From assembly GCA_937132085.1 (NCBI GenBank), contig CAKZNV010000088.1, positions 1 through 52,094 of the forward strand: a DNA stretch of 52,094 nt. The letters run 5' to 3'. Under the pieces are notes generated by a model. It had not been told where the DNA came from and searched no databases. It saw nothing but the letters and a program-made list of their open reading frames with translations. Position 1 is the first letter of the stretch. Each line of letters starts with the position of its first letter. Positions 15,819 to 22,537 of the stretch are shown here, piece by piece. The DNA is from an uncultured Rubritalea sp. Its GTDB lineage: Bacteria > Verrucomicrobiota > Verrucomicrobiia > Verrucomicrobiales > Akkermansiaceae. The position numbers and the translations under genes were made by a program.

Positions 15819-16031
15819 ATGAAATTAGAAGAATTAGTCGAAGAGGCGTCAAAATTGCCAGAAGAGCAAAGAGCTTCATTTGCTTCGCAATTACTTCATT
15901 CTCTCGAAACTCCTCATCATTGGATAAGTGATGAAGAGGTCTCTGAACGCATTCAAGAAGCAGAAGAAGACCCTAGTGTCATGATCTCATTTGAAGATTT
16001 CGTAAGTGGAGTAAAACGTAGTGGTAGCTAG
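15819..16031 (+). CDS. Addiction-module antitoxin (RelB/stability-protein family)
   Basis: Encodes 70 residues. The N-terminal helices 'LEELVEEASKLPEEQRASFASQLLHSLE' are typical of the short addiction-module component family, and the acidic 'ISDEEVSERIQEAEEDPS' segment is the usual toxin-neutralising part. It should bind and block the downstream toxin and repress its own promoter. Its stop overlaps the start of the toxin gene by 11 bp, the usual translational coupling. Confidence 0.88.
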   Translation: MKLEELVEEASKLPEEQRASFASQLLHSLETPHHWISDEEVSERIQEAEEDPSVMISFEDFVSGVKRSGS

Positions 16032-16320
16032 ATTTCATAAGAAGGTTCAATCAGACCTCAACAAAGTTCTAGAACAGTATTCTACGGTTTCTAATGAGTT
16101 AGAAGAGGATTTTTATGATGAGTTCATACTCGGTATAAAAAAGGCTACTCAAAACCCTAAGTTCTTTCATTTCGATGCAAGCGGATTAAGGCGATGCAAC
16201 CTTTACCGCTTTCCTTATCATTTTCTCTATGACTCAATAGACAACGAAATCCGTGTATGGGTGTTAAGGCATGATAAACAAAAGCCTTCATTCGGAATGA
16301 CCAGATTCAAACGAAAATAA
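16021..16320 (+). CDS. RelE/ParE-family toxin
   Basis: Encodes 99 residues with a likely GTG start at 16021, overlapping the antitoxin end. The fold pattern is ParE/RelE: a basic helix 'ARFHKKVQSDLNKVLEQYS', a second helix 'ELEEDFYDEFILGIKKATQNP', then strands with 'GLRRCNLYRFPYHFLYDSI' and 'IRVWVLRHDKQKPSFG'. The conserved R-R-x-x-x-x-x-F-P-Y-x-x-x-Y segment is as in plasmid-stabilisation toxins. Whether it acts on gyrase (ParE) or ribosome-bound mRNA (RelE) cannot be told. It forms a module with the upstream antitoxin. Confidence 0.9.
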   Translation: MVARFHKKVQSDLNKVLEQYSTVSNELEEDFYDEFILGIKKATQNPKFFHFDASGLRRCNLYRFPYHFLYDSIDNEIRVWVLRHDKQKPSFGMTRFKRK

Positions 16321-19884: not shown

Positions 19885-21696
19885 TTAATAAAACGGCCAC
19901 AGGATCGGGATCAAGAAGCTGGCTATAAGCCACATGATCACAGCTAGAGGGAAACCTGCTTTGAAGAAATCGCCGAATTTATAGCCACCTGCACCGTATA
20001 CAAAGGTATTAGTCTGGTAGCCGATCGGTGTGGAGAAGCTCGCTGATGAACCGAACATGATCGCGATCACGAATGGTCTAGGGTCAACACCCATACTCAT
20101 CGCTACCGCTATTGAAAGTGGTGTAAGCAAGGCCGCTACCGCATTGTTACTAATGATTTCAGTCATCACAGCAGCTAATAGATAGACTGCGCAGAGTAGC
20201 ACTTGTGGATTATCTTGGCCTAAGAAACTGACCATCTTGTTCGCTGCAAGACGAGCTAACTCGGAGTGCTCCATCGCCATGCCGACTCCTAACATACCGA
20301 AAATCATGAAGACTACCTTCCACTCAATCGCCTTATAAGCCTCATGAGGATCTAAACAACCACTAACCATCACACCTAGCGCACAGATGAGAGCCGTCAA
20401 CACTACAGGAACAGGCATCCCCAATGGACCACTGAGCGCTCCGACTAACATGAAAATCACAAGCGCTCCGATAGCAATAGGAGCTTTCTTACTACGATTT
20501 CTAGTAGCCTTAGGCTCACTAAGGTTAATAAAGTCTTTCTCCTCGAAGAGTTCACGCATTTTCGCCCCTGGACCCTGAACTAAGAGAGTGTCACCAAACT
20601 CTAGCTTCTCATCTTCAAACCTCTCCTTCAAGTTTCTACCTCTGCGGTGAACAGCTAGAATCAACACTCCAAATCTCTGTCTAAAATTAAGCTCCTTTAA
20701 ACTCTTACCTGCCAATGAAGAATCAGGCCCTAAAATACCTTCCATGAGCACAGCAGACTCGGTGCGCATACCTTCTAGACCTAACATTTCGTTGCCTCGG
20801 ACATCGATCCCTTCAGCGCTGGAAACATCCATCACACCAGAAAGAACGCCTTTAAACACGATCTCATCGCCTTCTTCGAATTTGACCTCTGGAAGCGGTT
20901 CCCTCACTCTGCGGCTATCACGTAGCACTTCTAGCACTCTGACTTTTCTCAGCTTGCTCAGTTCACTTTCTGCAAATGTCTTTCCTAAAAGTGGTGAGTC
21001 CTTACGAACATAAGCATGAGTAATAAATTCTCTGGTCTCACTGCTATCTATCAATGTAGCAAGCGTGACACGATCAGGCAAAAGCTTCTGCCCTACTGTC
21101 ATGAGATAAACAAATGTCACACCCACAAATACCAAGCCCAACGGCAAAATCTCGAACATGCTAAACGGCTCAAGGCCCTTTTCAGTAGCAATACCTGAGG
21201 CGATCAAGTTAGTAGATGTTCCAATAATAGTCATCGTTCCACCCGCAATAGCTGCGTAGGAAAGAGGAATGAGGTATTTAGAGGCTGTGAAATCTTGTTT
21301 TCTACAGATAGCCAAAACGATCGGCATGAATACCACTACCACTGGTGTATTATTGACGAAACCTGACAGCACTGCGACGATTAGGATCAAAGCCGCTAGC
21401 ATTTTCACCGGACTCCCACCGACTAGCTTTTCAAACCAAGCACCGAGTCTATCAATCACCCCAGTCCGCTCTAGCGCAGCACTGAGAATGAACATACAAG
21501 CAACCGTAATAGGCGCAGGGTGTGAGAAAACTTTGAGAGCATAGTTGTCAGCATCCGAGTCCATGCTCAAAACTCCGCCAATCACACAGGCAAGCATGGC
21601 CCCCATCGCCACTAGCTCCGCAGACACCCATTCTTTTACAAATGCGGAGAATACGATCACCACAAGTATAGTTAAAAAGATTTGCTCTGCTGACAT
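19885..21696 (-). CDS. SLC13-family permease with two TrkA-C domains
   Basis: Encodes 603 residues. Two membrane halves (about 1-195 and 405-603) flank a cytosolic central region (about 215-390) with two TrkA-C/RCK_C domains ('SPLLGKTFAESELSKLRKVRVLEVLRD..', then 'SSLAGKSLKELNFRQRFGVLILAVHRRG'). The membrane signature 'AIAGGTMTIIGTSTNLIASG' and its second-half partner 'SASFSTPIGYQTNTFVYG' are the SNT-type motifs of the divalent anion symporter superfamily. Relatives carry dicarboxylates, sulfate or other anions with Na+. The substrate is not evident. It starts 91 bp after the putative selenoprotein gene and may be co-transcribed with it. Confidence 0.92.
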   Translation of the reverse strand: MSAEQIFLTILVVIVFSAFVKEWVSAELVAMGAMLACVIGGVLSMDSDADNYALKVFSHPAPITVACMFILSAALERTGVIDRLGAWFEKLVGGSPVKMLAALILIVAVLSGFVNNTPVVVVFMPIVLAICRKQDFTASKYLIPLSYAAIAGGTMTIIGTSTNLIASGIATEKGLEPFSMFEILPLGLVFVGVTFVYLMTVGQKLLPDRVTLATLIDSSETREFITHAYVRKDSPLLGKTFAESELSKLRKVRVLEVLRDSRRVREPLPEVKFEEGDEIVFKGVLSGVMDVSSAEGIDVRGNEMLGLEGMRTESAVLMEGILGPDSSLAGKSLKELNFRQRFGVLILAVHRRGRNLKERFEDEKLEFGDTLLVQGPGAKMRELFEEKDFINLSEPKATRNRSKKAPIAIGALVIFMLVGALSGPLGMPVPVVLTALICALGVMVSGCLDPHEAYKAIEWKVVFMIFGMLGVGMAMEHSELARLAANKMVSFLGQDNPQVLLCAVYLLAAVMTEIISNNAVAALLTPLSIAVAMSMGVDPRPFVIAIMFGSSASFSTPIGYQTNTFVYGAGGYKFGDFFKAGFPLAVIMWLIASFLIPILWPFY

Positions 21697-21787
21697 GTCA
21701 AAGTTTTAACTGATGCTCCACTTACCAGCTAGTAAAAAATACTCGATAGCTAGTCATTTCACTCAACTTACTAAGGAACAAAATCCC

Positions 21788-22138
21788 CTACTCGAAAAAA
21801 GCTTCCCACTCCGGGAGTTTGAAGCCGTTGACAGCTCCGTTTTTAGCGATAATCAATGGACGCTTCACAAGATTACCATTTTCGCTGAGAAGCTTAATAG
21901 CTTCAGTCTCGCTCATAGTAGGAAGCTTATCCTTCATACCTAGTGATCTATAGTCCATGCCCGAGCTATTAAAGAGGCGCTTAAGCCCTAAATGCTCGCA
22001 GGCAAATTCTAACTCGGCAATCGTAGGTGGAGTTTTACGAACCTGTAGCGATTCAAACTCAATACCTTTATCAGCTAACCAACTGTTAGCCTTACGACAA
22101 TTACTTCAGCCACTATAGCCGTAAATCTTTACACTCAT
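21788..22138 (-). CDS. ArsC/Spx-family redox protein with in-frame UGA (putative selenoprotein)
   Basis: Reading through one TGA (codon 11, 22106-22108) gives 116 residues with the ArsC/Spx thioredoxin-like fold. The start is MSVKIYGYSG-U-SNCRKANSWL, then a helix, the strand 'IEFESLQVRKTPPT', a helical insert 'RLFNSSGMDYRSLGMKDKLP' and the C-terminal 'NLVKRPLIIAKNGAVNGF'. In this family the codon-11 position is the catalytic Cys of C-x-x-C; here it would be a U-x-x-C pair (U11, C14). The 105 codons after the UGA are intact. A hairpin with the expected bacterial SECIS geometry lies 21 nt after the UGA. Relatives reduce arsenate or act as Spx-like regulators; function here is open. The alternative is a point-mutated pseudogene or a sequence error. 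No selA/selB/selC is in the window. Confidence 0.75.
22073..22091 (-). promoter_or_regulatory. SECIS-like hairpin
   Basis: On the minus strand GGCUAAC-AGUUG-GUUAGCU forms a 7-bp stem (one G-U pair) with a 5-nt apical loop. The loop has G at its second position and starts 21 nt after the UGA. Known bacterial SECIS rules as I recall them are a loop of 3-14 nt, a G among its first two bases and a 16-37 nt distance; all three are met. Confidence 0.65.
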
Positions 22139-22158
22139 GATCTACTATAAATTAAAAT

Positions 22159-22180
22159 AGGGAGTAGAAATCTACTCCCT
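22159..22180 (-). terminator. Hairpin terminator of infA
   Basis: AGGGAGTAGA/TCTACTCCCT is a perfect 10-bp inverted repeat around a 2-nt centre (or 9 bp with a tetraloop). On the minus strand it is followed by ATTTTAATTTAT, so it probably ends the infA transcript, just ahead of the ArsC-like gene. Confidence 0.6.
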
Positions 22181-22213
22181 TATTAAAAATCATCGAATAA
22201 TCCAATTATCCCA

Positions 22214-22537
22214 TTATCCAATACGGAATGTAATACGTGCCTTAGTAGTATCATACGGAGACATCTCCATACGCACTCTATCACCTACTACGAGACGGAT
22301 GAAACGCTTACGCATCTTACCCGAAATGTGAGCGAGAACTTCGTGACCACCAGCTAGCTCTACTCGGAACATAGTTCCAGCAAGCACGACTTTAACGATA
22401 CCCTCGATCTCGACAGACTTATCTTCACGATCGTCTACCTTCTTCTTTTTAAATGGGCGCCCTTTATTCCTGCTTGGTCTGCCTCTGCCTGAAGCACGCT
22501 TACGCGCACCTGCTCCTTTTTTTGGTCTTCCTGCTAT
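22214..22537 (-). CDS. infA: Translation initiation factor IF-1, non-canonical start, basic N-terminal extension
   Basis: The OB-fold of IF-1 is clear: '[20 protein letters not shown]', '[19 protein letters not shown]' and '[18 protein letters not shown]'. It binds the ribosomal A site during initiation. No ATG, GTG or TTG exists in frame between an upstream stop and the middle of the domain. The best start is ATA at 22535-22537, 5 nt after the strong Shine-Dalgarno AAGGAG; ATT (22538-22540) is the other choice but lies only 2 nt from it. From ATA the protein has 107 residues versus 72 in E. coli, with ~35 extra residues rich in Lys, Arg, Gly and Pro ([20 protein letters not shown]). It is monocistronic, with a hairpin upstream. 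An ATG-to-ATA change or a sequence error is the simple alternative. Confidence 0.85.

Follow-up and report, generated by a model that had tools for sequence, protein, structure and literature searches.

Does a single in-frame TGA near the start of a small minus-strand gene of an uncultured Rubritalea sp. end that gene, or is it read as selenocysteine (Sec)? The gene lies in a contig of 52,094 nucleotides (the window, by which we mean this whole stretch of DNA), and its frame consists of ATG and nine further codons, the TGA, 105 codons, and a terminal TAG (Table 1). The TGA at residue 11 is the sole interruption, and decoding it gives the motif U11-S-N-C14. Since the standard code ends the gene at codon 10, routine annotation would truncate it or place its start further along. 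An earlier sequence-only reading had proposed that the TGA stands at the first Cys of a CxxC motif in an otherwise intact ArsC/Spx-family frame, that a 7-bp hairpin with loop AGUUG follows at 21 nt, and that the gene sits beside infA and an SLC13 permease. All of these features were found as described, and the comparisons below indicate that the gene is almost certainly a functional selenoprotein gene in which UGA is read as Sec.

Table 1. Features of the locus in window coordinates, with readings predicted from sequence
Feature	Position	Strand	Remark
Candidate selenoprotein gene, ArsC/Spx fold, 116 aa with predicted Sec at residue 11	21788..22138	-	stop codon included
TGA codon, predicted Sec (U11), first position of UxxC	22106..22108	-
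TGT codon, Cys14 of UxxC, likely resolving residue	22097..22099	-	invariant in 30/30 rows
Predicted bacterial SECIS hairpin within the frame (stem of 7 bp; loop AGUUG, second loop base G)	22073..22091	-	21 nt after UGA
CitMHS/TrkA_C permease (SLC13-like), downstream neighbour	19885..21696	-	after gene in Sec and Cys genomes
infA (IF-1), upstream neighbour	22214..22387	-	PF01176, profile positions 10-64

Family membership is clear. The window protein matches Pfam ArsC (PF03960) at 59.1 bits (cut-off 24) and, with C substituted for U, NCBIfam TIGR01617 at 81.0 bits (cut-off 75.05); all 30 rows of our alignment (A3) reach E 0.001 or better against TIGR01617. Scanning the window for frames that a single TGA links (at least 80 codons, at least 30 of them after the TGA, and less than 35% overlap with ORFs of at least 120 aa) returned four candidates. 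Besides the gene studied here, one has a sub-threshold antitoxin match 3' of its TGA, and the other two match nothing in Pfam. As a separate observation, the short ORF 15819-16031 (+) matches Unstab_antitox just below threshold (22.6 vs 23.3 bits) and is possibly an addiction-module antitoxin, and the next ORF, 16021-16320, matches no Pfam family.

The distribution of the TGA among relatives bears directly on whether it is an accident. The gene was found in 44 of 58 genomes (the window's own plus relatives), with one TGA in six matches and no stop in 38, where the no-stop status of nine of the 44 comes from the program count only. At residue level we read 40 rows (35 of the 44 matches and five further relatives), in which the aligned position holds TGA in six rows and Cys in 34. 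U11 thus stands opposite the first Cys of the CxxC motif of the Cys homologues, as the sequence-only reading expected, and the five sister genomes that carry the same TGA have an otherwise open frame, with none of the further disruptions that it had named as the mark of a pseudogene. The TGA form occurs in the window's genome and in five others of its 12-member genus; in five further congeners the frame contains no stop. In the remaining congener, G011 (92% complete), no match to the gene was found, and there the gene is either lost or missing from the assembly.

The search was also extended to wider samples. The gene is matched in 247 of 386 sampled genomes of the order; among the matches listed, only the five congeneric rows have a TGA, and no stop is listed at any of eight further loci (L051-L058). 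Searching the phylum with the pattern UxxCRKAxxW gave 22 matches in 21 of 387 genomes, a sample in which the window's genome is the sole representative of its genus. One match is the window itself, and none of the 10 matches for which loci were given encodes a relative (best tblastn E 0.34). Viral contigs yielded no relative; of 187 stretches matching the pattern there, none was confirmed.

These results leave little room for two trivial explanations. Because the genome of the window is a draft in 254 contigs, a sequencing or assembly error at a TGC or TGT codon might be suspected; however, the TGA is common to six genomes that belong to different species, and codon 11 is TGC or TGT in the 24 non-TGA rows of the 30-row alignment, which reduces the probability of an error to practically nothing. 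Alternatively, the TGA could be a plain nonsense mutation in a decaying gene, as its interruption of the frame under the standard code would suggest. Yet the same single TGA persists in six genomes whose synonymous sites are near saturation, without any other stop. In addition, rates pooled over the 15 pairs among the six Sec genes give 0.159 nonsynonymous against 0.709 synonymous differences per site over the whole frame, indicating that the putative Sec gene is alive and under protein-level selection. Synonymous change is itself constrained where the hairpin lies: it amounts to 0.356 per site over the 11 codons that follow U vs 0.747 outside the 14-codon stretch after U, and the ten 11-codon windows with the lowest synonymous rates all start no earlier than one codon upstream and no later than eight codons downstream of U. 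We therefore regard a pseudogene as very improbable.

If UGA is decoded as Sec, the decoding machinery should be at hand, and the search for it that the sequence-only reading had suggested was successful. The window's genome has a complete set of selA, selB, selC, and selD: selA scores 420 bits, selB 305.6 bits (cut-off 242.25), selD 373.4 bits (cut-off 125), and tRNA-Sec 58.3 bits (cut-off 47), with a TCA anticodon by ARAGORN. ARAGORN support and the selD search apply to the window's genome only. In 14 control genomes, matches over cut-off were found for SelA in two, SelB in two, SelD in two, and tRNA-Sec in five, which makes tRNA-Sec the less specific marker. A side observation concerns selD itself (L010:1501-2427, contig C201 of the window's genome), which has an in-frame TGA in the motif SCGGUASK and is very probably a selenoprotein gene too.

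Across the genus, SelA occurs in 11 of 12 genomes (absent from G008), SelB is over cut-off in nine (not in G001, G002, or G007), and tRNA-Sec likewise in nine (not in G001, G002, or G008). SelA, SelB, and tRNA-Sec are all over cut-off in four of the six Sec genomes; of the other two, G008 has no SelA match and no tRNA-Sec over cut-off, and G001 has neither SelB nor tRNA-Sec over cut-off. Among the five Cys congeners, all have SelA and three (G004, G006, and G010) have all three components over cut-off. Completeness is 58% for G001, 82% for G002, 83% for G008, and 93% for G007, and the SelB gap of G007 is the one that incompleteness explains least.

The hairpin is the second element on which Sec decoding would depend. 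In the window it reads GGCUAAC-AGUUG-GUUAGCU, with seven pairs and a 5-nt loop. According to passages of a 2026 review (PMC13188914), bacterial SECIS elements have a loop of 3-9 nt, a stem of 4-16 bp, a G in the first two loop positions, a spacing of 16-37 nt, and a folding energy of -7.5 or lower. All six Sec genes have a 7-bp stem and a 5-nt loop at 21 nt after the UGA, with a G in the first two loop bases, and so conform to the rules for shape, G, and spacing; in G005, an alternative 8-bp stem with a 3-nt loop and 22 nt spacing is also possible. The energy rule holds for folded 45-nt windows in all six (-8.4 to -12.8 kcal/mol) and for the bare hairpin in one, the other five lying at -7.2 kcal/mol, just short of the published -7.5. 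A search of positions 21700-22400 against Rfam gave one chance match (12.9 vs a gathering score of 65).

Taken by itself, the window hairpin is weak evidence, and the case for it comes from its conservation. Its z-score is -1.68, and 16 of 200 shuffles fold equally well. Similarly, of the 2413 TGA triplets in the window, 141 precede a hairpin that obeys the loop, spacing, and G rules with an energy of -5 kcal/mol or lower, and in 90 cases the stem has at least 7 bp. When codons were redrawn synonymously from the rest of these genes, six 7-bp stems in six genes appeared once in 5000 draws. With codons taken from the small pool of the individual gene, the mean was 2.0 such stems out of six, and six were reached at least once in 500. 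Two stem pairs vary among the six Sec hairpins, in each case with pairing kept through one-sided changes; no two-sided (covarying) change was found among them, and there is therefore no covariation support beyond conservation.

The seventh residue after U is N in all six Sec rows, and the eighth is S or R in the six Sec rows and K in 27 of 34 Cys rows. The predicted hairpin is under selection, and the predicted SECIS has left marks in the protein at residues 7 and 8 after U.

One alternative would accept translation through the UGA and dispense with selenium, the codon being read as an ordinary amino acid (Trp or Cys). Such read-through is compatible with the sequence-level basis of our reading. 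However, it would not account for Sec machinery that includes a tRNA-Sec with a TCA anticodon, nor for a conserved SECIS-like hairpin, and we consider it very unlikely. Based on the machinery and the conservation, we propose instead that SelB with Sec-tRNA would read the UGA at codon 11 as Sec, guided by the hairpin 21 nt downstream.

What, then, would the protein do? The AlphaFold model, built with C in place of U, has a mean pLDDT of 95.3 and places residue 11 (modelled as Cys) just N-terminal of the first helix (residues 12-23). The first solved relatives by sequence are the ArsC-related proteins 3gkx, 2m46, and 3fz4, and Foldseek with the model ranks 3gkx, 3fz4, and 2m46 first by E-value; all three have Cys where the window protein has Sec. 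Fold and motif suggest that the product is an ArsC/Spx-fold thiol/selenol oxidoreductase, in which Sec, immediately ahead of the first helix, would bond with Cys14 as a selenenylsulfide.

The name of TIGR01617, Spx/MgsR family RNA polymerase-binding regulatory protein, points to another role, that of a redox regulator binding RNA polymerase in which Sec would sharpen a redox switch and not serve a reductase. The fold cannot tell Spx from ArsC-related proteins because their TM-scores are similar (0.78-0.87 for Spx chains and 0.84-0.89 for ArsC-related ones, partly equal). Nevertheless, the protein scores far below the cut-offs of the Spx models (NF002459, 36.6 vs 123 bits; NF009885, 31.2 vs 152 bits), its closest solved relatives by sequence are annotated as ArsC-related, and we know of no regulators with Sec. 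A regulatory role thus seems rather unlikely, and the protein is probably a thiol/selenol reductase.

Selenoproteins of ArsC type are already known, so the relation of the window protein to them needs to be defined. The sequence-only reading pointed to Sec-containing ArsC-like proteins reported from marine metagenomes, and rightly so. Domain cd03032 is, we presume, the ArsC_Spx domain. The Global Ocean Sampling survey lists an "Arsenate reductase 2" assigned to cd03032 with UxxC and 42 sequences (PMC2398784); compared by description only, it and the window protein share UxxC, an ArsC_Spx domain, and a marine source. In a passage of a 2022 review, which also names protein MAM02162.1, that survey is given as the source of a UxxC arsenate reductase-like protein (PMC9312934), and a passage of the 2026 review places such a selenoprotein under NF041106 (PMC13188914). 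We infer from these passages that the two reviews mean the same entry. A UxxS arsenate reductase, with 14 sequences, is reported from the Sargasso Sea (PMC1088965), and the UxxS selenoprotein of TIGR00014 recurs in sections of three sources (PMC1088965, PMC2398784, and PMC13188914). It resembles the window protein in belonging to the ArsC superfamily and having Sec at the catalytic Cys position. It differs in having UxxS in place of UxxC, and the window protein scores 47.6 bits against TIGR00014 (glutaredoxin arsenate reductase), below its cut-off of 106.05.

NF041106 (ArsC_rel_Se_1) is closer in appearance, having in common with the window protein the ArsC superfamily, UxxC, and a hairpin just after the UGA. 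Here too the window protein falls short, at 17.3 bits against a cut-off of 85, and its Sec was therefore probably acquired separately. Among the 58 relatives' genomes, G050, from the same order, is alone in having an NF041106 protein above the cut-off (L113:1501-1827, 99.1 bits), with a 7-bp stem and 5-nt loop 24 nt after its TGA. This member and five of the six Sec rows have S-W at residues 8-9 after Sec. However, BLASTP aligns only 28 residues between it and the window protein, eight of them identical, and it lacks both the FNSSGMDYR and the GNLVKRP stretches. The putative G050 selenoprotein is thus a different Sec protein from that of the window.

In the literature covered by titles and abstract openings, nothing concerns this Rubritalea protein. 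A search pairing Rubritalea with selenoprotein found no paper, and "spx" is absent among the matches listed for a search on Spx, selenoprotein, selenocysteine, and ArsC. The protein appears to show a sulfur-to-selenium switch inside one genus.

The direction of this switch can be judged from gene order and trees. In the window the order is infA, selenoprotein gene, CitMHS/TrkA_C permease; the infA ORF as listed starts at GTG, and its true start probably lies further upstream. In our comparison of gene order, which covered the permease, L13, and S9, the gene also precedes this permease in the five other Sec regions retrieved (partially in G003, where the contig ends) and in six of the seven Cys regions retrieved, the exception being a 4,130-base contig in G002. 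The Cys-bearing TIGR01617 proteins of Verrucomicrobiales thus share both family and gene-permease order with the window protein, with Cys where it has Sec. Because the gene pair recurs, a functional tie between gene and permease is suggested. On the upstream side, the five Sec regions carry the ribosomal genes for L13 and S9, which the comparison did not find in the seven Cys regions.

In the 40-row tree, the six Sec rows form one clade (100/99), with one change of state, and this held without the SECIS columns. Most of the deeper branches lack resolution, and the row closest to the clade, from G040 of another family, has the Cys form. A 19-row SelA tree places the five Sec genomes that have SelA, together with G011 (the congener without a match to the gene), in a clade (100/98). 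None of the Cys congeners belongs to it; three share a larger group with it, and G002 and G007 do not.

Since the Sec rows form one clade and the Cys congeners share the gene-permease locus and have SelA, the simplest explanation is that the gene was inherited vertically and switched in place. On the evidence of trees and gene order, we consider it highly likely that Sec replaced the catalytic Cys in place within this lineage. In one earlier survey, Cys-to-Sec was the commoner direction (33 vs 15 events; PMC1794560).

We also looked at the place of the hairpin in the Cys genes. Stems of at least 5 bp occur there in 7 of 24, and codon draws give a mean of 8.1; the idea that these are remnants of a SECIS was rejected, as such stems are no commoner than in the draws. 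In the Cys congener G004 (L028), we observed a 6-bp hairpin with SECIS-like spacing at the homologous place (-6.4 kcal/mol). That hairpin might be taken to mean that Sec was ancestral and the Cys congeners are reversions. Such a history would need many losses, with 34 Cys rows against one Sec clade, and the stems of the Cys genes look fortuitous given the codon draws, so that an ancestral Sec is improbable.

Under replacement of Cys by Sec, the raw material for a SECIS may already have been present. The K-A-x-K-W-L motif of the Cys protein makes a putative latent hairpin fairly likely, and about a third of Cys genes have a fortuitous hairpin of at least 5 bp at the right distance. Because the motif already yields such hairpins, the switch may have needed few steps.

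Altogether, it seems likely that Sec arose independently a third time in the ArsC/Spx superfamily, within one genus and at an unchanged locus, and that building the SECIS altered the protein next to its active site (S or R for K, and N at a position that is otherwise mostly hydrophobic). Cys congeners of the Sec subclade also have Sec machinery. Sec and Cys orthologs that share both locus and genus, with Sec decoding in either group, would thus constitute a natural experiment on what selenocysteine adds to an enzyme and on how a SECIS arises inside a coding frame.
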